Shown here piece by piece: positions 11,015-64,000 of a stretch of DNA of 64,000 bases; the first letter of the stretch is position 1; each line of letters opens with the position of its first letter. The position numbers and the translations under genes were made by a program. The notes beneath the pieces were generated by a model. That model made no database searches and was not told the DNA's origin. It saw nothing but the letters and a program-made list of their open reading frames with translations. The stretch comes from Chlorobiota bacterium (GTDB lineage Bacteria; Bacteroidota; Ignavibacteria; OLB7), in the NCBI GenBank assembly GCA_016788565.1, contig JAEUSP010000055.1:62001-126000 (forward strand), read 5' to 3'.

Positions 11015-12562
11015 ATGGTTGAAGTTCGTCCCGATGAAGTAACCGCCATCCTGCGCAAGCAGTTGACTGGCTTCTCGAGCGAGGTGGATGTTTACGACAT
11101 CGGCACCGTTTTGGAAGTGGGCGACGGTGTGGCGCGCGTCTATGGCCTAACCAATGTGCTTGCTTCGGAACTTGTCGAGTTCCCAAACGGTGTCACCGGA
11201 ATGGCGTTGAACCTTGAAGAGGACAACGTTGGTGTGGTGTTGTTCGGCGATGACAAGCTCATCAAAGAAGGGGACACCGTGAAGCGTACCGGTAAGGTCG
11301 CCTCCGTTCCGGTGGGGGAAGCGTTGCTGGGTCGGGTGGTGAATCCGTTGGGCGTACCCCTTGACGGGCGCGGCCCAATCAACGCCGCTGCGGTGCTCCC
11401 GATTGAGCAAAAAGCCCCGGGCGTTATTGCCCGCTACCCAGTTCACGAGCCGCTGCAAACCGGCATCAAAGCCATTGATGCAATGGTTCCGATTGGGCGC
11501 GGCCAGCGCGAGCTTATCATCGGCGACCGCCAAACCGGAAAGACGGCTGTGGCGATTGATACCATCATCAACCAGAAATACACCCATACCCCAGAAGCAA
11601 AAGCACAAGGGATTGACCCGGTGTTCTGCATCTACGTCTGCATCGGCCAGAAAGCATCCACCGTTGCCAACGTTGTGCAAATCCTGAAAGACAACGGCGC
11701 GATGGAGTACACCACCGTTGTGGTTGCCAGCGCGGCCGATCCCGCTCCGCTTCAGTTTATCGCTCCATACTCCGGCGCGGCAATGGGTGAGTATTTCCGC
11801 GACAGCGGCCGCCATGCTTTGGCAGTCTATGATGACTTATCGAAGCAAGCTGCTGCCTATCGCCAGTTGTCGTTGCTGCTTCGCCGTCCGCCAGGGCGCG
11901 AAGCCTACCCGGGCGACGTGTTCTATCTGCACTCACGCTTGCTGGAACGCGCAGCCAAGTTAGATAAATCCAACGGCGGCGGATCGCTGACGGCCTTTCC
12001 GGTGATTGAAACCCAGGAAAGCGACCCGTCGGCCTACATCCCAACCAACGTGATCTCGATCACCGACGGCCAGATTTATCTGATGCCAAACCTGTTCAAC
12101 GCAGGTGTGCGCCCGGCAATCAACGTCGGCATTTCGGTCTCGCGCGTGGGGGGAAGTGCCCAGATTAAGGCGATGAGAAAAGTTTCCGGCACGCTGAAGC
12201 TGGACCTTGCACAGTATCGCGAACTTGAAGCCTTCGCAAAATTCGGCTCCGACCTTGATAAATCCACGCAGCAACTGCTGAACCGTGGATCGCGCTTGGT
12301 GGAGTTGCTGAAACAGGGGCAGTTCCAGCCGATTCCGGTGGAGGAGCAAGTGGCGGCCATGTTCATTGGAACCAGCGGCTTCTTGGACAGCATTCCACTT
12401 GCCGATGTTCGCCGGTTCGAGCAGGAGTTTATCGCGTACTTGAAGTTGAAAAACCCTGAGTTGCTTCCAAGCATTGCACAGAAGAAAGAGTTGACCACCG
12501 AAATCAGCGACGGGCTGAAGGGTGCCGCAACCGAGTTCTCCAAGACGTTCGCACGAAGCTAA
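11015..12562 (+). CDS. atpA: ATP synthase F1 subunit alpha
   Basis: A 515-residue protein of standard length. The nucleotide-binding P-loop GDRQTGKT is at residues 170-177, and the family segment [20 protein letters not shown] follows. Alpha subunits bind but do not hydrolyse nucleotide and form the hexamer with beta. The beta gene (atpD) and epsilon gene (atpC) are not in this cluster, which is the split arrangement seen in Chlorobi and many Bacteroidetes. Confidence 0.97.
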
Positions 12563-46595: not shown

Positions 46596-48695
46596 TCATT
46601 TTCCTCCCGAAAGTTCACGCTGCCACAATATCTCCCGAATCCTATCCAGCCCCGATTTCAAATGCCGCCGGTAGGTGCTGAACGGAAGGTCTAATAGCTC
46701 CGCTGCGCGTTCCTGCGAGCTTGCCGGGTTCAGATAGGTCCGATAGACGGCTCGGTAAAATTTTTCCTCCTTTGGGTTGGCTTTAAGTTGCTCGGCAGTC
46801 GCCTGAATTATCTGCTGCAATACTTTAACTGCGGGCGTGGTGTTTGTTAAACGTTCGTTTTCTAGCACTATTCGCGAGCGGAGCAATGGGTTTTCGGTCA
46901 CGCGGTCGGGTGAGGTGAAGTGCTTGATTGCCGACAGCAGAGCATCATCGAAAGCGTCTTTGCTGAGCACAATGATTTGCGGCATCACAGGCATCGGTTC
47001 GCCCCGGCCCGCTACGTTGGCTCCGGCAGTTTCCCGTTCGGCCAGAATTGCCAGCCATTGCACTGGCGGAACGCTGCGCCAGTCGTGGCCATAGACACCA
47101 AAGCTCTGCTCGCCAACGGTAAAATCAGCCTGCGGTAAGCGGTGCAGATCAATGTAGGAAAACCCTTGTGTCCAGAAATCTGGATTAGCGCAGGGGAAAA
47201 AAGTGAATGCCAAGTTCGCCGTGATGAGATAGTACCGCCCAACATTGATGAATGCCGAGCTTTGCACCGGGGAAATATCTTGGTAACTCTCTGCCGACAT
47301 CCAGTAGCGGAACAGCGTGGCGCGTTCGCCCGGGCGCAGCGGCGCATATTGCTGAAGGTAGCTCCAGCAGGCAGCGGTTGCGGGGTCCTGCTGGCAATCT
47401 TCCTGGCTGCATTGCTCCAATGCCAGCATCATCAAAAAGCCAACTGGTGTTCCCTGCGGGGTTCGCAGCACCAGCACGTTTTCCGGTTGGCGTTGGAACC
47501 AAAATGCGGCAAGTTCTGCAGAGTGCTCCCCTTCATGGCGTTGCACCATTTGGCGCAACAGTGGGAAATCGGTGTTGCGTGGAGAATCAGCAAGCGCGTT
47601 CCCCACCCCCTGCCACATGAACATCTGGCGCATCACGGGATTGTCGCGGTGCAGGTAGGCGTAGTCGAACATCACCCGTTGTTGGTCGTGGCTTTGTGCG
47701 CGATGCAGCCGGGCAGCGTAATACTTCCGGGCACGGCGGTGAAGCTCGATATACCAATCGGGGTTGCGCCAGCGGACATCGGCCACTAACGCTTCCCGCG
47801 TGAGGTCGTGCGGAAACAGTCCATCCACCGCCGACTCCACAAAAGAAAGGGAACGGAGCCACCGGAACAATTCTGGCGCGCCGGAAAGCCCAACCATTTC
47901 TTCTAACAATGCCTCGGTGGTGACACGCACCAGTGCGCAGGCTTCCAATGCTGCTCGATGCGCAGGCCCAGGAACACGTTGCAGAAATCGCTCCAGCAGC
48001 ATCTTCACAATGTCGGGCTGTAGTTCGGGGGTGAAATGGATATCGCCGTGATACGCAAACAGGTCGGCCACCAACGACAAAGCAAGCGGGTGGCCGTGGG
48101 TGAACTCCAACACCGCCCGTTGCTGGTCGGTGGGGATATTCCGTCTGGTTAGATACTCACGGCTCTCCTCGGTCTGCAAATTCCGCAGCGGAAGAATCCG
48201 CACAAGTTCCTGCCACCCTGGGTCGGTTTTCCACTCGTTTGGCGGGTGGTTTCTTCCGGCAAGCACCACCAGCACGTTTGCCGGAAGCTGCGGGATGAAC
48301 TCCTCACGAATCCATTCTTCCAACGTTTCCAGTGATTCGTAAGTATCAATGCAAAGGATAAATCGGGTGTGAAGCTCGGCCAGATACTCCACAGGAGAAG
48401 CGTCCAGCGGAAGGGAGAGCAGTGAGCGCAAGGCATTGTTGAACGCAACCGGTGTTGGCTCGATGTGGCGTGCATCAATGCTGCCAGCCTGAATTTCCGG
48501 CTCGGTGGTAGCGATGGTGATGAATTGGGCAATCAACGATGACTTCCCCACCCCCCCAGGCCCAACGATATACAGGACATGGAAGGGGAGCCGCTTGGCA
48601 GCGATTGCCGAACGGAACATCGAAACCTCACTCTGCCGGCCAACAAAATGTTTACGCCGCCCGGCGGCAAGGCGGTCTGCGATTCGGGAAGTCAT
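46596..48695 (-). CDS. STAND-type ATPase regulator with C-terminal helix-turn-helix
   Basis: A 699-residue multidomain protein. The N-terminal P-loop ATPase (about 20-300) has Walker A GPGGVGKS at residues 45-52 and a hydrophobic Walker B-like strand ending in CIDTYE, as in STAND/AP-ATPase regulators. A winged-helix-like region follows (about 240-330). The middle (about 370-560) includes TPVGFLMMLAL and has an acyltransferase-like look, but this is a guess. The last 60 residues (QERAAELLDLPFSTYRRHLK) form a helix-turn-helix like sigma region 4. It is probably a ligand- or stress-gated transcription factor. A palindrome lies right before its ATG. Confidence 0.75.
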   Translation of the reverse strand: MTSRIADRLAAGRRKHFVGRQSEVSMFRSAIAAKRLPFHVLYIVGPGGVGKSSLIAQFITIATTEPEIQAGSIDARHIEPTPVAFNNALRSLLSLPLDASPVEYLAELHTRFILCIDTYESLETLEEWIREEFIPQLPANVLVVLAGRNHPPNEWKTDPGWQELVRILPLRNLQTEESREYLTRRNIPTDQQRAVLEFTHGHPLALSLVADLFAYHGDIHFTPELQPDIVKMLLERFLQRVPGPAHRAALEACALVRVTTEALLEEMVGLSGAPELFRWLRSLSFVESAVDGLFPHDLTREALVADVRWRNPDWYIELHRRARKYYAARLHRAQSHDQQRVMFDYAYLHRDNPVMRQMFMWQGVGNALADSPRNTDFPLLRQMVQRHEGEHSAELAAFWFQRQPENVLVLRTPQGTPVGFLMMLALEQCSQEDCQQDPATAACWSYLQQYAPLRPGERATLFRYWMSAESYQDISPVQSSAFINVGRYYLITANLAFTFFPCANPDFWTQGFSYIDLHRLPQADFTVGEQSFGVYGHDWRSVPPVQWLAILAERETAGANVAGRGEPMPVMPQIIVLSKDAFDDALLSAIKHFTSPDRVTENPLLRSRIVLENERLTNTTPAVKVLQQIIQATAEQLKANPKEEKFYRAVYRTYLNPASSQERAAELLDLPFSTYRRHLKSGLDRIREILWQRELSGGK

Positions 48696-48699
48696 GGGC

Positions 48700-48746
48700 G
48701 CGCTGTTGCAGGAAATCTGCAGGAAATCGGAACAGCGCCAAAGATA
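48700..48746 (-). promoter_or_regulatory. Palindrome and -7 element before the STAND gene
   Basis: On the minus strand, TATCTTTG (plus coordinates 48739-48746) perfectly matches TAnnTTTG. It abuts the arm GCGCTGTT (48731-48738), whose partner AACAGCGC lies at 48700-48707, 4 bases before the ATG. The loop holds two direct copies of GATTTCCTGC. The -33 box is weak. It looks like a promoter overlapped by an operator or a 5' stem-loop. Confidence 0.5.
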
Positions 48747-48954
48747 GGCCGCGAAACGGAAATTTGGTGTACGATGCCGAAAGATTACATGGGGAATTTA
48801 CCGGACAGATGGAGTATTTAGCAGGAGAGCATCCGAACGCTTGCCCCAAAATGGAGTTCGCAAACGGCGCAACTCTACCTCTCTTTCTCCCCTCTGTGTT
48901 CTCTGTGTCTCTGTGGTTCTTTCTCTTCTTTCTGAAGCACCGAACAATTCAGCA
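48747..48954. other. Intergenic region with a TC-rich dispersed-repeat-like tract
   Basis: No gene is seen. About 48875-48930 is a pyrimidine-rich tract containing CTCTGTGTTCTCTGTGTCTC, a sequence type common in bacterial intergenic repeats. The rest carries no clear structure beyond the promoter at its left end. Confidence 0.4.
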
Positions 48955-49521
48955 TCACCCAATCCCCCAAATTCTGGCAACCACCAGCACACCGCCAACC
49001 GCCGCAATCATCCGCGAAATTTCTGGAACAAGTTTCTCGCGAACCCCTTGTTTATCGGCCAGCCACAGCAGCGGCAGCGCGGCCAGCACAACAATAATCT
49101 GCCCAACCTCAATCCCGATATTGAACCCAATCAGTGCTGGCCAGATACTCCCTTGCTCCACCGCCCCTTTCAGCAAGCCAACAAGGTGGCCAGAAAAACC
49201 AGCCCCGTGAATCAGCCCAAACAGCCCAGCCACAATCCACCGGTGCGAATTCTCGCCGCTGCCACGGACGGTGTTTTCAATGCCAACGTACACAATCGAG
49301 GCAGCAATCAAAGTTTCGGTGATGATGGGTGGGATTGATAGCACCTCAAGCGCGCTAAGCACCAATGTGGTGGAGTGAGCAACCGTGAACGCGCTAACCA
49401 CCATCAGCAGGCTTCGCCACGAGCGCGCCACAAGGATTAACCCAAGCAGGAACAGAAGGTGATCGTAGCCTTCAAGGATGTGGTGTAATCCAATGTTGAA
49501 GAATGCCCCGAAGTCGCCCAT
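48955..49521 (-). CDS. HupE/UreJ family membrane protein
   Basis: A 188-residue membrane protein with about six helices. It starts MGDFGAFFNIGLHHILEGYD and has FGLIHGAGFSGHLVG, the two histidine motifs that define the HupE/UreJ group, members of which are linked to nickel uptake for hydrogenase or urease. No hydrogenase or urease genes lie here, so the metal or substrate is uncertain. It ends a run of DUF4331, TPR and DUF6702-like genes with gaps of about 30 bases. Confidence 0.82.
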   Translation of the reverse strand: MGDFGAFFNIGLHHILEGYDHLLFLLGLILVARSWRSLLMVVSAFTVAHSTTLVLSALEVLSIPPIITETLIAASIVYVGIENTVRGSGENSHRWIVAGLFGLIHGAGFSGHLVGLLKGAVEQGSIWPALIGFNIGIEVGQIIVVLAALPLLWLADKQGVREKLVPEISRMIAAVGGVLVVARIWGIG

Positions 49522-57100: not shown

Positions 57101-58757
57101 GCTGAGCACCAACCGCATCTCCTTCGGCACGCTTCTGCCGTGTGCAATCCCAACTGCTGTGGATTCAATCACGGTGCGGAATTACGGGACTGCCGTTGTG
57201 AAAATCACCCAAGCCCAGCTTGCCAACTCAGCCTCGCAATTTCAATTTCTGAACTCCCCCTTCCCCCGCGACCTTGCCCCGGGGGATGCCGCCACACTGC
57301 TTGTTGGCGTGAAACCCGGCCCGCAAGAAACCCTTTCCGACCGATTGGTGCTGCTTACCGAACCAGCCTTGCAAACCGAACTCAGCACCGAGCTAACGGC
57401 CCAGCGGGAATCCGTTGGCAGCGCGGCACTGGATCAATCGGGCGCGCCGGTGGCGGAACTCAGCTTTGTTGGAGTGACCCCGTGCAGAACCTCCATCACC
57501 AAGCAATTTCGGCTGCGGAATCAAGGGAGCGTGGCCGATACGTTCGCGCTTACTTCAACCTCAACCGATTTCACAATCACGCCAACCGGCGCGTTTGCGT
57601 TGGGGGCTGGCCAGGAGCAGTGGGTGACGGTTGCGGCAGATCTATCACAAGCAAGCTCCACCGAAACGTTGGTGATCCGTTCGGCCAACTGCTTGGGTGA
57701 GGGGCGGATTGAGCTGCGAACCAGCCTCCGCACGGTAGCGATTGACCGCCCCGACACGCTACGCCAGCAAGCCGTTGTTGGGAAGGTGAGCGATGGAGTT
57801 CTGGAACTGCTGAACCCCTCCTCCGATTCGGTGCTGGTGGACGAAGCCGTCATCCAACATGGTGGCGATGCTTTTTCACTTCAGTTCACTTTGCCGCAAG
57901 CGATTGCGCCCGGTGGGCGGCTGGCAATCCCCATTCAGTTTGCCCCCGATTCGGTTGGCTTTTTCAGCGGCGCAATCCGGCTAACCCTTGCCGCACCTTG
58001 CCCCGATACTCTGACAGTCTATCTGTGGGGCGATGGCGGAAGCGACCGAATGGATACCGTTGCAATCAGCATGGGAACAACCGTTGGGCGTTGGGGTGAA
58101 ACCGTGACCACGCCACTCATTGTTGCCAACAGAAGCAACCGCCAACTTCACGTTGATGTTGGCGTGCAGGCAAACCGCCGATTGCTACGGCCAACAAGCG
58201 TAACCACCAAAACCAACAGGGCCGACTTCATCTGGATTGACTCGGCCAACGGCAGCGTGCAGCTTCGTGGGCTTTCCATCCCCCCTGTTTCTGCTGCGGC
58301 GAACTCGGTTGCCCGCACGATTTCCGATACTGTGGCCACCATCACTTGGCAGGTGCTTCGGGGGGATACGGTTGCAACGCCAATCTCCATTTGGGGAGTT
58401 TCGGCTGATGCCCGCGCCGTTGTGGCCACCACCGACGGAGCTTTCCTTCTGGAAAATTATTGCGATGCCCACGGGCGATTGCTTCGCGCGGCGGGGCTGC
58501 TTGAACTGAAGCAGAATATCCCCAACCCGTTCAGCCAAACAGCGGTGATCGAGTTCGAAATCCCGTTCAATGGCCAAGCAACACTGACGGTGACGGATCT
58601 GTTGGGGAACACCGTTCTTCAGCCAATCAACGGGCCACAGGTTGCGGGCCGCCAGCAGGTTGTGATTGATGCAAACAGCCTGCCCCACGGGGTCTATCGC
58701 TACACCCTTCAGGCTGGATTGCAGACCCTTTCACGCTGGATGATTGTGGCGCGGTGA
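54183..58757 (+). CDS. Very large secreted protein: YCF48/BNR repeats, ASH-like domains and T9SS tail
   Basis: A 1524-residue protein. Signal peptide about residues 1-29 (LFFNGSTAVAQ). Residues 30-330 hold repeats like those of photosystem II assembly factor YCF48/BNR (TANGGTTWQSSSLPN, TTDGGASWTNV). From about 340 to 1440 come immunoglobulin-like domains with recurring segments of the ASH/choice-of-anchor type (IDFGDVLVGTKRGDSLVPV, VTLGTAPLGEQTSGVIEI). The C-terminus is a T9SS-like domain (LKQNIPNPFSQTAVIEFE, ending RWMIVAR). GGAAG lies 6 bases before ATG 54183; the frame extends much further upstream without support. It overlaps the next gene (TGATG). Confidence 0.8.
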   Translation: MSPSFQRAFCSFFLLVFTVLFFNGSTAVAQWRKLTAYSTGFYNEVFFFDNQHGWITSFNGTVLRTANGGTTWQSSSLPNAKSSPNRDICFVSSSTGFISGDDGIWKTTDGGASWTNVSPSSPTISGSTSCWFIDANNGVLGFGGCADSTVTFCSTTDGGTTWSSVSYNHTIADVAVGGIGYTNGAYHAAGGSGKHWKSTDGGASWSYLPTGSGGWQEDLVTAAGNIFVASADGTSCAAIGGGKILRSTNGGSSWAAANFPSVVMWGITMFSGNDGWACGDNGNAFKTTNGGTTWTNTSCGMASADRIDDIHFTDATHGWAVGDGIYQYVPHYYLPIRDTIDFGDVLVGTKRGDSLVPVKSIGTAGTIQSWQTAGADSAHFNLPSAITPIPVPSCGSAGVLASFQPRSEGVKIARVELTLLDAATPIAVVVKGRGVRPRIAAPATFKAADTMICDYRRFDTIPVRNLGSYPLQVDSVWFSDMRSGRFSVVRPLPPFSVPVGSVVGLVIQTDMGGTTGAFAATLQLRNNDPDAGASPHQVVMSGYRRKILSELDPDTAVTIPSAPLRTSSAVCIRLANMGDGVQVIESVKPLNGSPAITLKNTVVNLQIPQGEYTMLCFEARATDTLPHERKFWIRMQPCGRDTFVVVKFKATNPYAAAPSQRSLQLATCGALATDSIVVKNNGNSELLLRSARFGSPASSFVVAWPTAWPVTVMPHDSVILAYQITPTNAQQRDTLSIQSNDSTLAGGLLKIPCLVTFSRPQASAAVVQSGQSPVCRSADTTWQRVAIANGGNVAVTILEVIQQSGNQLPFAVQIPRQTIAAGARDTLLVGLVAAQPGSFHEGFVVRFAECGLADSLTLRLDVAEASVAWVRQSVTLGTAPLGEQTSGVIEIVNNGTRDVAIDSLYLTNSKFLIQGISFPLLLRPGEQRAINILFVGDSTAGRFTADVVAVTASPCQQKITGSIAVEVTSQEVTLSTNRISFGTLLPCAIPTAVDSITVRNYGTAVVKITQAQLANSASQFQFLNSPFPRDLAPGDAATLLVGVKPGPQETLSDRLVLLTEPALQTELSTELTAQRESVGSAALDQSGAPVAELSFVGVTPCRTSITKQFRLRNQGSVADTFALTSTSTDFTITPTGAFALGAGQEQWVTVAADLSQASSTETLVIRSANCLGEGRIELRTSLRTVAIDRPDTLRQQAVVGKVSDGVLELLNPSSDSVLVDEAVIQHGGDAFSLQFTLPQAIAPGGRLAIPIQFAPDSVGFFSGAIRLTLAAPCPDTLTVYLWGDGGSDRMDTVAISMGTTVGRWGETVTTPLIVANRSNRQLHVDVGVQANRRLLRPTSVTTKTNRADFIWIDSANGSVQLRGLSIPPVSAAANSVARTISDTVATITWQVLRGDTVATPISIWGVSADARAVVATTDGAFLLENYCDAHGRLLRAAGLLELKQNIPNPFSQTAVIEFEIPFNGQATLTVTDLLGNTVLQPINGPQVAGRQQVVIDANSLPHGVYRYTLQAGLQTLSRWMIVAR

Positions 58758-60793
58758 TGAACCACTTCAGCTTTTTCACTTTCCGGCAGATTCTGGTTTT
58801 GTTGGGATGCTGGATGCTGATCCCGAAGCCAACCGCCACGGCACAAGCGAAACCCGACTCGCTGAAAACTGCGCGGGTTTCCGGATTCGTCGGCTACATT
58901 CTGGATGGCTTCACCTGCAAGTATGCGGTGGCGGCTGGCGGAGCTATCACCACATCAGCGGCGTGCGGAGCGTTTGAAAATGGGAACGACACATCGCTGG
59001 AAATTGGGGTTGGATATGCTCGCGATTTCAGCTCTCGGCTTGGGCTGCGTGGGTTGTTCACCTTCCGGAACGGGGCGTTTCAGCAATCGTTCAACTGCAC
59101 CGATCCCGCCCAGATTCTTACTCCAACCGGAACAACCCAAGCCCTCACCCGGTTTGTCAACAGGGTTAATGTTTCCACCATCTCACTCTCGCTTCTTGGC
59201 GATTTCCAACCGTTTGCGATCCCGCTGCGGATCAGTGCCGGGCCAGCAGTTTCCATCACGATCAAGGAGGATTACTCAGCTGATGAGGAGGTCGTAACCC
59301 CGATAACCGCGGAGTTTTTGGAGGGTGGACAAACCAGAAACATTGGAGCGGGTAGCGGAAATGGAGGTCACATCAGCGTTGCCGCCGATGCCGAGGCAGC
59401 CTATCCAATTATTGCGGGGGAATCATTGCGGCTGCTGCCGTCGGTTGCGGTTCGGCATTTTTTCAGCTCACCAATCTCGTGGGCATCGTTCGGTTGGAAC
59501 AGCGTGACGCTGCGGCTTGGGTTGGAGTATCAGTTTTGGAGTACGCCTGCCGAACCTTCAACCATCGCTCAAGCTCCCTCCAGTCAGCCCGATACAGTTG
59601 AGTATCTGGCATCGCCGCCGGCAATGGAGGTTCCCACGGAAACTCCCGCGCGATTTGCCATTGGCTGGAGCAACACGGCAAACGGCGACACCGCCATTGC
59701 ACAACAACGGCAGCTGATCCGCCAGCAGAGCATCCCCCTTCTCCCCTACATTTTTTTCGACTCTGGCTCGACGCAGATTCCCGAGCGGTATCGCTTGCAA
59801 TCACACGTGGGTGCGGCAGAACGGGAGAACGCTGCAAGCGAAATCGCCACCGCAGCATGGCTTCACCGAAGTGTGCTTGACACCATCGGCCAGCGGCTGA
59901 GGTTGACCCCGGCGGCACGCATCACCATCACCGGAACAGCACCGGAGCGGACTGGGGCGGATGCAATTTCAACAGCGGCCGCCCGCGCCGCAGCAGTGCA
60001 GAACTACCTTGCCGAGGTTTGGAGCATTGACCGCACCCGCATTGCGATTGCTGGCGTGGCCGCGCCGGAATCGCCAACCATTTCTAGCTCACCTCAAGGG
60101 TTTGCCGAAAATATCCGTGCGGAAATCGCTTCCGATAACCCCGCGATTCTCTCACCCATCATCTTCCGCGACACGGTTTCCACAATCTCCAATCCCACAA
60201 TTTCTGGCCGCGTTATCCCAGGAAGCGACTCACTGATTTCGGTTGAGATTGAGCGCGAAAACGGAGCGCGCCAGCGGTTGGCTTTGCATGATAGAGTTGA
60301 GAAAAATGGAGTTGAGAGAAGCATTCTGGTGGAAGGTGTAGTTCGACCGCTGCCCCGTTTGGCTGGCACCGAGGGGAGCGTTGAAACCCTGCGATTGAAG
60401 ATCATCACCCGCGGCCGGAAACCGAGCGAAACGCCACTGTACTTGCGGACGGAGGCAGAGAAGGAAGTGCGGTTGGAGGCGTTGGCATTATTTCCGTTTG
60501 GAAGTGCGCGGCTTGCCGAAAAAGATGCCGAAGCAATCCGGCAACTGCGCCGCTGGGCCGGCCCCAACGCAACCGCCCTCCTGCTTGGCAGCACCGACGA
60601 TTTAGGGGAAGCAGCGGGAAACCTTCAGTTGTCGCGTGGGCGCGCAGCCACGGCGGCTGCACTGCTTGGGCTTCCAGTGGCCAGAACGGAAGGGGTTGGG
60701 GAAATCGCCAACACAGCAACGCTCCGCTACCCAGAAGAACGGATGTACGCCCGAAGCGTTCGCGTGCGGATTGAGAGGGGGAGTGAAGAGTGA
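58757..60793 (+). CDS. Outer-membrane protein with two OmpA-like domains
   Basis: A 678-residue protein. A signal peptide of about 29 residues precedes a beta-rich region (about 35-260) resembling an outer-membrane barrel. Two OmpA-like stretches follow: the first begins YIFFDSGSTQIPERY (about residue 333), with RARAAAVQNYL-like helices after it; the second has FPFGSARLAEKDAEAIRQLR (about 576) and NLQLSRGRAATAAALLG. OmpA domains usually bind peptidoglycan. The start ATG overlaps the stop of the giant gene by one base (TGATG), so the two are probably co-translated and may form a surface complex. Confidence 0.72.
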   Translation: MNHFSFFTFRQILVLLGCWMLIPKPTATAQAKPDSLKTARVSGFVGYILDGFTCKYAVAAGGAITTSAACGAFENGNDTSLEIGVGYARDFSSRLGLRGLFTFRNGAFQQSFNCTDPAQILTPTGTTQALTRFVNRVNVSTISLSLLGDFQPFAIPLRISAGPAVSITIKEDYSADEEVVTPITAEFLEGGQTRNIGAGSGNGGHISVAADAEAAYPIIAGESLRLLPSVAVRHFFSSPISWASFGWNSVTLRLGLEYQFWSTPAEPSTIAQAPSSQPDTVEYLASPPAMEVPTETPARFAIGWSNTANGDTAIAQQRQLIRQQSIPLLPYIFFDSGSTQIPERYRLQSHVGAAERENAASEIATAAWLHRSVLDTIGQRLRLTPAARITITGTAPERTGADAISTAAARAAAVQNYLAEVWSIDRTRIAIAGVAAPESPTISSSPQGFAENIRAEIASDNPAILSPIIFRDTVSTISNPTISGRVIPGSDSLISVEIERENGARQRLALHDRVEKNGVERSILVEGVVRPLPRLAGTEGSVETLRLKIITRGRKPSETPLYLRTEAEKEVRLEALALFPFGSARLAEKDAEAIRQLRRWAGPNATALLLGSTDDLGEAAGNLQLSRGRAATAAALLGLPVARTEGVGEIANTATLRYPEERMYARSVRVRIERGSEE

Positions 60794-60958: not shown

Positions 60959-61082
60959 GAGCCGAAGCCGGGAAGGAAATAGGAAAGCGGAGGGCCAGAT
61001 TCGCAGGCTTCCGCTCTTGATCCTACTTCCTACTTCCTATTTTCCCCCTTGCCTATCTCACCCCCATCCCCGAAGTTCCCGC

Positions 61083-61169
61083 ATGAACAACTCCCTCCAC
61101 CATACCGCAACTACCGCTGCACACCGCAGCACTACTCATAACCAACTCCACAAGGAGCAACTCACATGA
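61083..61169 (+). CDS. Possible 28-codon leader peptide overlapping the FG-GAP gene
   Basis: An ORF that begins MNNSLHHTATTAAHRS and stops with a TGA that overlaps the start of the next gene (ATGA). The equivalent region before the second copy (63336-63422) is open over exactly the same 29 codons. There are 11 differences in 87 bases and no insertion or deletion, but most changed codons alter the amino acid. So coding is possible and not proven; it may instead be a conserved untranslated leader. The AAGGAG of the downstream gene lies inside it. Confidence 0.35.
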   Translation: MNNSLHHTATTAAHRSTTHNQLHKEQLT

Positions 61170-62998
61170 AGAACAACCGCCGAAACACCCACCGACAACG
61201 AAGCCGCGCGCCATCACGCAGCATGGGACTGCTGGGTTTGCTGCTGCTTGCGCTGCTGCTGCCGACAGCCGCAACCGCACAAACGCCACCCAAACGAATT
61301 GACCCCAGAAACCCCGATGCCGGCACCTTGCAGATGATCGCGCAACATGTGCTCACCGGATGCAAACCAGGCGTTGGAAACCTTACTGGCGAGATTCACC
61401 CGCTGGGGAAAACTCCACTCGGTGAACATGTCTGGCTCTTAGAACGAGTACGGTGCGATACCTCCATCGAAGAGTATGGCTATCCTACTCAGCCCAAAGA
61501 CTTCCTACTCTGCCGAACCGACAGCACTGGGGCGATACCGCCGATAGAACGTCTGGTACGGATCGGGACTAGTGACGTTGCCACAGAACTACGGTTCTTG
61601 TGCGCAGCAGATTTCGATGGGAACGGATACCAGGATGTCGTCTGCCAAGTCCATCGAATCAATGATACCAGCAATGGGAATGTGAAGGGGTATCGCATCT
61701 GTGCCGTAGCGGTGTTTTGGGCAAACGATCTGGGGGAGTATGCGGAAGATGATACGACACAGATATCGAACGGGGCGCAAGCATGGTTAGGGCCGAGTTA
61801 TGGGATTGGTGGGGACATAGACAATGATGGATGTGAGGATGGATTATTGATGTTTACCGGATCGGGGTATCGGGATGGGAAGCCGTATGGTGGTTTGCCA
61901 GTAGCGTATCTACTACGCGGAGCAACGAAGCGATGGAAGGGAAGTGAACAAAGCATAGCCCGAGTGCAGCCCTGGTGGTATATGGCCAAGGGAGTAGATA
62001 TCACCACGATGAGCCTCCTGGACGCAGACTGCGACGGGTGGAAGGATTTGGTGTTCTATGGTGGTGGTACGGCTGGCTCAATCAGCATCTGCTACGGACG
62101 ACCCAACGCCTTCCCCGATACCAACAATATCCAAACACTCACCATCCCCCAAGAACTTGGATGGCCTGCTCTGCTGAGCGATGTCACCGGTGACGGTGTT
62201 CCGGAACTCTTGGTCAAATCCAGAGTCTCCATCACCGACCGCATCCTCCTCTTTGCTGGTAAACCACGGCAACGGTTGTTGGAGCAGTACGGCTCCGGCA
62301 ACGATTCCCTGGACCGCGCCCAAGGACGTTTCCCAACCAGACCCTGGGCGCAAGTCATCTTGCCATCACTCCTCCATGATGGGTGGTTCAAGAGCGGTCC
62401 CATCGTACCTATCGGTGATTTGGACGGAAATGGCACTGATGAACTCTGGAGCAGTTCCCCACCCTTTTTATTGGGGTATCGTGTCGAAGAGAAGTGTGAC
62501 TCCTTAGCAGACCTGGTGTATCGGTGGAACTCTCCAGCCGATGTCGCACCATTAGGTCGGCTCAGTGCCAGCACCTTGCCAGTGTTGGCATTGGGCTATG
62601 GTGGAGGCATCAGCTATCTGCGAGCAACAACCATCTCCGAGACTTGGGGCAGCGAGTATCGGCTGCCGCATGAGCCTGGCTACCGTTGCCAATATGCTGC
62701 AAGTGCGGTGCAAGACCTAACGCCAAGACTACTGAACGAAGACTCTTGGCAACTTCAGGTGTTTCCTCAACCCGCACACAGCCAAGCGACCATCCACTGG
62801 AACACGGAACAGACTGCCGACACTCTCTACCTCACGATCCACGACATCCTTGGCCGCCAAGTCTGGCAGGCAACGATTCCTCAAGGACAGTCCTCCATCG
62901 AATGGAACACGGCCAATCTGGTCGGCGGGGTCTATACCATCACGCTTGGCAACGCCAAGCATACAACGACGATCACCACACTCATTCAATCACACTAA
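61166..62998 (+). CDS. FG-GAP/VCBS-repeat secreted protein with T9SS-like tail
   Basis: A 610-residue protein with a long basic N-terminus then a membrane-type signal segment (GLLGLLLLALLLPTAATAQ). The body has calcium-binding FG-GAP-like motifs DFDGNGYQD, DIDNDGCEDG, DADCDGWKD, DVTGDGVPE and DLDGNGTDE. The C-terminal domain (LQVFPQPAHSQATIHW, GGVYTITLG) resembles a T9SS sorting domain but lacks the basic VVR end, finishing IQSH. AAGGAG lies about 8 bases before ATG 61166. The first 235 bases are almost identical to the partial gene at 63419; the body is not, and is less G+C-rich (45 percent in 61801-61860). Confidence 0.78.
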   Translation: MKNNRRNTHRQRSRAPSRSMGLLGLLLLALLLPTAATAQTPPKRIDPRNPDAGTLQMIAQHVLTGCKPGVGNLTGEIHPLGKTPLGEHVWLLERVRCDTSIEEYGYPTQPKDFLLCRTDSTGAIPPIERLVRIGTSDVATELRFLCAADFDGNGYQDVVCQVHRINDTSNGNVKGYRICAVAVFWANDLGEYAEDDTTQISNGAQAWLGPSYGIGGDIDNDGCEDGLLMFTGSGYRDGKPYGGLPVAYLLRGATKRWKGSEQSIARVQPWWYMAKGVDITTMSLLDADCDGWKDLVFYGGGTAGSISICYGRPNAFPDTNNIQTLTIPQELGWPALLSDVTGDGVPELLVKSRVSITDRILLFAGKPRQRLLEQYGSGNDSLDRAQGRFPTRPWAQVILPSLLHDGWFKSGPIVPIGDLDGNGTDELWSSSPPFLLGYRVEEKCDSLADLVYRWNSPADVAPLGRLSASTLPVLALGYGGGISYLRATTISETWGSEYRLPHEPGYRCQYAASAVQDLTPRLLNEDSWQLQVFPQPAHSQATIHWNTEQTADTLYLTIHDILGRQVWQATIPQGQSSIEWNTANLVGGVYTITLGNAKHTTTITTLIQSH

Positions 62999-63011
62999 TC
63001 CTCTTCATGCT

Positions 63012-63422
63012 ATGACGACCTATCGCACTCTTCTACCTTGCCTTCTGATGCTGGCATCCTGCGCTGCACCGCTAACAGCGCAAACCTTGTACGAGTGGCA
63101 GCAATGCGACACCTGCTTCAAGGGCTACGACGTGAACTGGCAACAGCACCACCAATTTGAAATCGGTGGCGAAGACCTTGCCTTGCCCACGCAAGGCCGC
63201 CGTGATTTTACGATGGAGTTCGGATACTTCTACGGGATGCCCACCAGCTTGGCGCGTTATGCCGATGTGTTGCTTGGGAAGAACCCACCCCATTTTTCCC
63301 CTTGCACACAACCGCAATCAATCCGAAGTTCCCGCATGAACAACTCCTTCCACCATACCGCAACTACCGCTGCCAACCGCAGCGCAACCAATAACCAACT
63401 CCACCAGGAGGAACCAACATGA
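63012..63422 (+). CDS. Short lipoprotein-like gene fused in frame to a repeated leader
   Basis: A 136-residue frame that starts 13 bases after the previous gene. It has a lipoprotein-type signal (LLPCLLMLASC) and about 75 residues with no recognised family (WQQCDTCFKGYDVNWQQHHQ). From about residue 98 it runs into the sequence that is repeated upstream of the FG-GAP genes, and residues 109-136 are the leader ORF itself. It ends with a TGA overlapping the next start (ATGA). The natural end has probably been replaced by the duplicated leader, so this is likely a truncated or chimeric gene. Confidence 0.5.
   Translation: MTTYRTLLPCLLMLASCAAPLTAQTLYEWQQCDTCFKGYDVNWQQHHQFEIGGEDLALPTQGRRDFTMEFGYFYGMPTSLARYADVLLGKNPPHFSPCTQPQSIRSSRMNNSFHHTATTAANRSATNNQLHQEEPT
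63336..63422 (+). other. Second copy of the 28-codon leader
   Basis: MNNSFHHTATTAANRS and so on, aligned codon by codon with 61083-61169. It lies inside the 3' end of the short lipoprotein-like frame and directly before the second FG-GAP gene, with CAGGAGG as ribosome binding site. Seen in sequence; whether it is translated separately is unknown. Confidence 0.4.
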
Positions 63423-64000
63423 AGAACAACCACCGAAACACCCACCGACAACGAAGCCGCGCGCCATCACGCAGCGTGGGGCTGCTGGGCTTGCTGCTGC
63501 TTGCGCTGCTGCTGCCGACAGCCGCAACCGCACAAACGCCACCCAAACGAATTGACCCCAGAAACCCCGATGCCGGCACCTTGCAGATGATTGCACAACA
63601 CGTGCTCACCGGATGCAAACCAGGCATTGGAAACCTTACTGGTGAGATTCACCCCCTCGGCAAACTCTCCACCGCCGGACCCGTGGCGTGGCTGCTCGAT
63701 CGCGTTCGTTGTGACACCACTTTTGGCGATGCCTCGAAGCAACCACGTGACCTGTTGTTGGTACGTGCCGTTGATGGGGCAATCCCCCCATTGGATAGTG
63801 CCGAGCGTATCGGCGCTAGCGAACTGGGGAGTGTCACCGAGTTCGTGTGTGCAAGTGATCTTGATGGTAATGGGCATCAAGACCTCATCTGTACAGTTCG
63901 CCAGCTGAATGATACAAGTTTTGGTCCAAGCGTCGGGTATGAGTATGGCAAACTGGTCATTTTCTGGAGCAGCTCCAAGGGGAAGTATTCGATTGCTGAC
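63419..64000 (+). CDS. FG-GAP/VCBS-repeat secreted protein, partial (runs off the window)
   Basis: The first 194 codons of a gene continuing past the window end. The N-terminal 80 or so residues are nearly identical to the protein at 61166, including signal segment and the GCKPG and GNLTGEIHPLGK stretches. After this the sequences differ strongly, although a calcium-binding motif DLDGNGHQD remains aligned with DFDGNGYQD of the first copy. The shared and variable parts meet near base 63655. It is part of a tandem family. Confidence 0.78.
   Translation, partial: MKNNHRNTHRQRSRAPSRSVGLLGLLLLALLLPTAATAQTPPKRIDPRNPDAGTLQMIAQHVLTGCKPGIGNLTGEIHPLGKLSTAGPVAWLLDRVRCDTTFGDASKQPRDLLLVRAVDGAIPPLDSAERIGASELGSVTEFVCASDLDGNGHQDLICTVRQLNDTSFGPSVGYEYGKLVIFWSSSKGKYSIAD

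Follow-up and report, generated by a model that had tools for sequence, protein, structure and literature searches.

FG-GAP propeller genes with shared ends and diverged bodies in a Chlorobiota bacterium: a mosaic family probably shaped by copy-to-copy overwriting

We have analyzed a 64,000-nucleotide stretch of the genome of a Chlorobiota bacterium (the window), at the end of which two tandem genes, A1 (copy 1) and A2 (copy 2), encode FG-GAP proteins. The window belongs to a 150-kb contig, C80, of the source genome G000 (4.58 Mb, 137 contigs, completeness 100). It was compared with the genome of a sister species, G001, and with a third genome of the same family, G002. Sampling was one genome per species; G000 is fragmented and G001 is a metagenome-assembled genome. 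The other copies are named by contig, with C for G000, b for G001 and c for G002. The locus comprises the following features.

61083..61169, forward strand: 28-codon upstream open reading frame (ORF) before A1, its TGA stop overlapping the A1 ATG (ATGA); translation putative
61166..62998, forward strand: A1, predicted exported FG-GAP propeller protein with a type IX secretion system (T9SS) type A sorting tail, 610 amino acids
63012..63266, forward strand: 5' remnant of a partner gene (CDTCFKGYDVNW) behind A1, cut at the duplication junction
63336..63422, forward strand: 28-codon upstream ORF overlapping the A2 start
63419..64000, forward strand: A2, FG-GAP protein of 605 amino acids, running on to window-equivalent position 65236 (L018:6420-8237)

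Both products exceeded the gathering scores of PF13517 and PF01839, their FG-GAP repeats having DxDxDG-type loops, and both begin with a signal-peptide-like N-terminus. A1 matched FG-GAP_3 (3.5e-09) and Por_Secre_tail (1.6e-08), as did A2 (2.7e-10 and 1.5e-07, respectively). The sorting tail of A1 exceeded the cut-offs of TIGR04183 and PF18962, and that of A2 exceeded PF18962 but fell just short of TIGR04183 (21.6 against 23 bits). This tail was present in A1, A2 and b45 and absent from the C5/C91/b10 subfamily. SprA, the sole T9SS component searched, was over the cut-off in all three genomes. The AlphaFold model of A1 was weak (mean predicted local distance difference test score 62, predicted template modelling score 0.60), and it was consistent with a propeller and a C-terminal Ig-like domain. 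A PDB fold search with this weak model returned generic propellers for the most part, integrin alpha5 and CRTAC1 among them, and also unrelated beta proteins. Judged by their domain matches, A1 and A2 are members of a multigene family of FG-GAP / VCBS-type beta-propeller proteins, predicted to be exported.

The tandem duplicated unit is ~2.2 kb long, and what is constant in it is both ends together with patches between them. Block edges were taken from a two-state hidden Markov model (HMM) segmentation of the aligned A1 and A2 units.

61070..61401, forward strand: high-identity block 1 of A1, with the leader, the overlapping short ORF, the signal peptide and the first ~78 codons
63323..63654, forward strand: high-identity block 1 of A2, counterpart of 61070-61401
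61402..62020, forward strand: diverged body of A1, 53.5% identical to 63655-64264
62021-62055, 62072-62136, 62268-62348, 62372-62394: the first four of eight further high-identity blocks, A1 coordinates
62645-62710, 62747-62946, 62972-63054, 63094-63266: the other four of the eight further high-identity blocks, A1 coordinates
62747..62946, forward strand: the block over the T9SS sorting tail of A1, 185/200 identical to A2

Block 1, which takes in ~95 bp of leader, was identical at 312 of 332 positions (94.0%), and past its edge, 236 bp into the gene, identity fell abruptly to 53.5% over the next 604 columns. An initial annotation of this DNA had placed the fall near 61401 and 63654, and the HMM edge agreed with it to the base. 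It had also described the 5' modules as nearly identical even at synonymous sites, and fourfold sites bear this out, with 39/42 identical in the 5' module versus 11/36 in the body (Fisher p=9e-9). Synonymous divergence (dS) between A1 and A2 was 0.095 in the 5' module and saturated in the body. On the other hand, the annotated picture of a constant 5' module followed by a variable body held for the module but was incomplete, because eight further blocks (91-100% identical, 23-200 bp) make the 3' part of the gene and the beginning of the partner gene constant as well. These blocks fall in the FAGK..QRLLEQYG region, which they cover in part, in the sorting tail, in the intergenic DNA and in the initial ~250 bp of the partner gene. 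The segmentation thus rejected a single-breakpoint model. The annotated contrast in G+C between module and body of A1 was right in direction but weaker than the sampled lines had suggested (59.8% versus 54.1%; in A2, 59.3% versus 51.5%). As the window mean is 54%, it is the module of A1, not its body, that departs from the average.

A recent duplication in tandem, after which the bodies diverged fast under relaxed or diversifying selection and without recombination, would agree with the tandem position of A1 and A2, with the duplicated partner-gene remnant that they have in common and with the pairing of their bodies in the tree. However, identity switches several times along the gene, and the saturation of silent sites in the body against a dS of 0.095 in the 5' module does not come from selection at the protein level. 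Duplication alone is thus refuted as the sole cause, and we regard it as highly improbable. That strain variants were fused into a chimera during assembly, giving the mosaic, seems to us just as improbable. The division of G000 into 137 contigs, with many contig ends within the family, would be in keeping with a chimera, but a single 150-kb contig holds both A1 and A2, the longest run common to them (113 bp) is shorter than the 141-bp overlap between contig ends, and tandem pairs arise independently in three genomes.

An ORF of 28-29 codons with the ATGA overlap precedes A1, A2, b45 and b23, in two species. Because the changes between A1 and A2 in this short ORF mostly alter the peptide, translation coupling is likelier than a function of the peptide itself. 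The overlapping ORF and a leader motif kept across species could also point to a constraint at the nucleotide level, by which RNA structure or regulation would hold the 5' module identical. Nevertheless, the 5' modules of A1 and b45 were only 56% identical (fourfold sites 8/19), which refutes such a constraint as the main cause, and a search of Rfam gave no match. Accordingly, we consider this explanation extremely improbable.

The partner gene (CDTCFKG) encodes 975-1880 amino acids across L033:7186-10113, L074:8160-10895, L075:2-2806 and L018:8238-9605, and had no match in Pfam. It is intact after FG-GAP genes on contig 45 of G001 and contigs 1 and 2 of G002, and only remnants of it stand at the window locus. 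Within the remnant behind A1, positions 63094-63266 were identical to the copy behind A2 at 170 of 173 sites. The array, which the initial annotation had as continuing beyond the window, does so as far as the end of A2 and the following partner remnant, and no further. Since contigs C34 and C55 of G000 end in almost the same partner sequence, the partner gene may be mosaic too.

A self-search of G000 gave eight matches to the FG-GAP part, on C80, C5, C91, C56 and C107, and seven weaker matches to sorting tails only. C56R and C26, both of them contig ends, carry one further 5' module each. A 5' piece and a 3' piece could be parts of the same gene, and we therefore put the count in G000 at about eight genes. 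The initial annotation had named only two copies in the genome as a finding against its reading, and this does not hold. G001 has at least seven copies, on contigs 45, 10 (tandem), 118, 23, 82 and 79, with fragments on contigs 73 and 36, and G002 has one tandem pair and one single copy. In the remaining 58 relatives, searched at 1e-20, there were zero matches to the FG-GAP family.

The combination of a similar 5' module, a diverged body and a similar mid-block recurred in C91b/C107, b82/b79, b10a/b10b, b45/b23 and c2a/c2b, so that such pairs, tandem or dispersed, were found in three genomes. The longest exact runs between tandem copies were 113 bp (A1/A2), 107 bp (b10a/b10b) and 98 bp (C91b/C91a), and that between the cross-species orthologs C107 and b82 was 23 bp. 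Contig breaks coincide with exact repeats of the family, 141 bp long in G000 and 127 bp in G001, indicating that longer identical stretches exist.

Trees of separate segments conflicted in a sister subfamily, outside which A1 and A2 fall. By approximately unbiased (AU) tests, the 5' module rejected the groups {C91b,b79} (p=0.027) and {C56,C107,b82} (p=0.029), and the mid-block rejected the same two groups (p=0.004 and p=0.0007, respectively). The body, in turn, supported {C91b,b79} at 100/100 and rejected {b82,b79} (p~1e-93) and {C91b,C56,C107} (p~1e-51). In other words, 5' modules and mid-blocks group by genome, and bodies group by type across species. As read from these topologies, the conflict is the mark left by recombination that homogenizes the ends. 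The reversed phylogenies show overwriting of the ends for the sister subfamily, and for A1 and A2 silent sites suggest it. These incongruent trees and the pairs in three genomes support gene conversion, as the initial annotation proposed, or ectopic recombination as what holds the export end constant, and on a wider scale than the window by itself could reveal.

Allelic import between strains, in which diverged bodies are brought in through recombination at conserved flanks, would be expected to leave the same mosaic. The body types common to both species would suit it, and allelic exchange of surface proteins has been described in Porphyromonas gingivalis (PMC5266723). However, paralogous 5' modules within one genome are closer to each other than orthologous 5' modules between the two species, so exchange between loci is needed. 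Import and exchange between copies can coexist; as the explanation of the family, import seems to us unlikely.

The bodies themselves appear to be stable. Between orthologous bodies of the two species, dS was 0.48-1.08, and the ratio of nonsynonymous to synonymous divergence (dN/dS) was 0.05 for C107/b82, 0.08 for C91b/b79 and 0.10 for C5a/b118. As judged by these ratios, the three body types were shown to be under strong purifying selection. The initial annotation had compared the pattern to antigenic variation. A programmed system of antigenic or phase variation, which swaps body cassettes into expressed genes within a strain and leaves promoter, leader and export signal fixed, would match the constant ends, the differing middles and the dispersed family. 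Nevertheless, each full copy has its own leader, start and signal peptide, a silent donor of the A1 and A2 bodies was not found in the fragmented G000, no expression locus was found, and the bodies compared across species are stable types with dN/dS of 0.05-0.10. We therefore do not retain this comparison and consider programmed variation quite improbable.

The structure of the contig ends bears on the same question. Two 5' contig ends, C26 and C56R, converge on the body contig C91b; C56 and C107 share a 141-bp end, and the ambiguous join of C56 or C107 to C5b is by only 54 bp. The convergence and the shared end could be alternative joins in a population, as antigenic variation would have it, but collapsed repeats explain the convergence of contigs equally well. 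As C26 and C56R end in the same 141-mer, the join to C91b is ambiguous, and a candidate body swap between species at an AAA-gene locus (C56R to C91b) was dropped for this reason. It is distinctly unlikely, in our estimate, that living populations shuffle FG-GAP bodies among export modules at dispersed loci, with cells of one strain showing different propellers. If they do, C26 and C56R would represent true alternatives for joining to C91b, not repeats collapsed into one, and the contig-end structure makes shuffling at the population level testable using existing reads.

Considering these results together, the family is probably a mosaic, concertedly evolving set of FG-GAP propeller genes in which copies overwrite one another, forming a repertoire with a common export module. 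Several points weigh against this interpretation. The assembly of G000 breaks inside the family, which makes copy number and joins uncertain, and several of the short identity blocks of A1 and A2 may be partly due to conserved motifs. The AU tests of the 5' module were moderately significant, on 177 columns. A cross-species body type for A1 and A2 was sought and none was found, and their bodies pair with each other in the body tree (93/93), so that the case for conversion in A1 and A2 rests on silent sites.

Copies occur as tandem pairs and singly, at dispersed sites that are mostly non-syntenic between G000 and G001. The window array is flanked on one side by an OmpA-family gene (58754-60793) and on the other by a gene called DHH-like on inspection (L018:9403-10401); the two are adjacent in G001, with ~210 bp between the aligned flanks, and the array is absent. 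FG-GAP gene b118 adjoins a hupE-like gene in G001, and the same site of the window (~48600-48955) is empty. Likewise, an array on the purB side is in G000 and absent in G001, and FG-GAP genes on the polA and asnS sides are in G001 and absent in G000. The site next to an alpha-2-macroglobulin-like gene is occupied in both. These differences are unpolarized between gain and loss, and no target-site duplication was evident at the compared sites.

Several sites filled in only one of the two species show that tandem duplication and relocation spread the copies to many places. Homologous recombination between copies has then probably overwritten them repeatedly, over the leader and signal peptide, at the FAGKPGQRLLEQYG mid-block and along the 3' end. 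As such conversion depends on homology, it would act where copies remain alike, that is, at the ends and conserved blocks; bodies too diverged to recombine would escape overwriting, drift out of reach, specialize and last as distinct types. The putative role of the family would be a repertoire of surface or secreted propellers with different binding partners and a common export module.

Some other elements were observed around the family. Six FG-GAP genes of the sister subfamily, in two species, are preceded at a distance of ~40-80 bp by a palindrome, GCTAAC-N16-GTGTTAGC (position 1501 of L064, L070, L062, L061, L067 and L069). There are six sites per genome (0 and 3 in the reversed control), the remainder being at orthologous places near unrelated genes, and the palindrome is absent at A1 and A2. 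It is possibly an operator or a hairpin; on inspection it was not accepted as an integron attC site, for which 30 bp is too short and the core unfit. A large AAA_16 ATPase with a TPR-like C-terminus (L021:2820-6212) stands beside some FG-GAP genes and has 24 matching places in G000 and 24 in G001. An IS3-like transposase pair (L050:1-1365) abuts a 127-bp FG-GAP mid-block at a G001 contig end, which suggests an interrupted FG-GAP copy. Dispersed intergenic inverted repeats of 40-109 bp were also seen (L018:10427-10510 and 11615-11723; also in L020, L021, L022, L074 and L075).

In terms of significance, the family would set apart two processes in one gene: the export module is homogenized inside each species, and the body types, kept by purifying selection, last beyond speciation. 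Such families also call for caution, as they fragment metagenome assemblies, with ends at exact 127- or 141-bp repeats, and can mislead ortholog calls. In a limited text search of the literature, we found no paper combining FG-GAP proteins with gene conversion.

Antigenic variation from silent cassettes is known from Neisseria pilE/pilS and Borrelia vlsE. The present family resembles these systems in its constant ends, variable middle and recombination between copies, but a single expression locus and silent partial cassettes were not found in the fragmented G000. In P. gingivalis, T9SS surface proteins (gingipains, HagA and others) diversify by domain rearrangement and allelic exchange (PMC5266723). 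The proteins described here are likewise diversified T9SS surface proteins, as predicted from sequence; however, exchange there is mainly between strains at one locus, whereas here the ends of paralogs are homogenized. The homA and homB genes of Helicobacter pylori show segment-specific concerted evolution, one segment grouping by strain and another by gene (PMC2795765). The FG-GAP family shares this behavior, but hom is a pair of genes in a single species, at two loci, and here about eight dispersed copies have body types that cross species. In babA, babB and babC of H. pylori, near-identical ends enclose a divergent middle that is conserved per type, and gene conversion between loci has 5' breakpoints ~60-240 bp into the gene (PMC4552749). 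The break between A1 and A2, 236 bp into the gene, and the same architecture of ends and middle are alike. On the other hand, bab encodes a beta-barrel adhesin in another phylum rather than an FG-GAP propeller, its phase variation by CT repeats has no counterpart seen here, and change within strains is documented for it. By analogy of architecture, the bab and hom families of H. pylori are the closest analogues, and with our study their kind of mosaic concerted evolution would reach FG-GAP propellers and a T9SS lineage that is uncultured.
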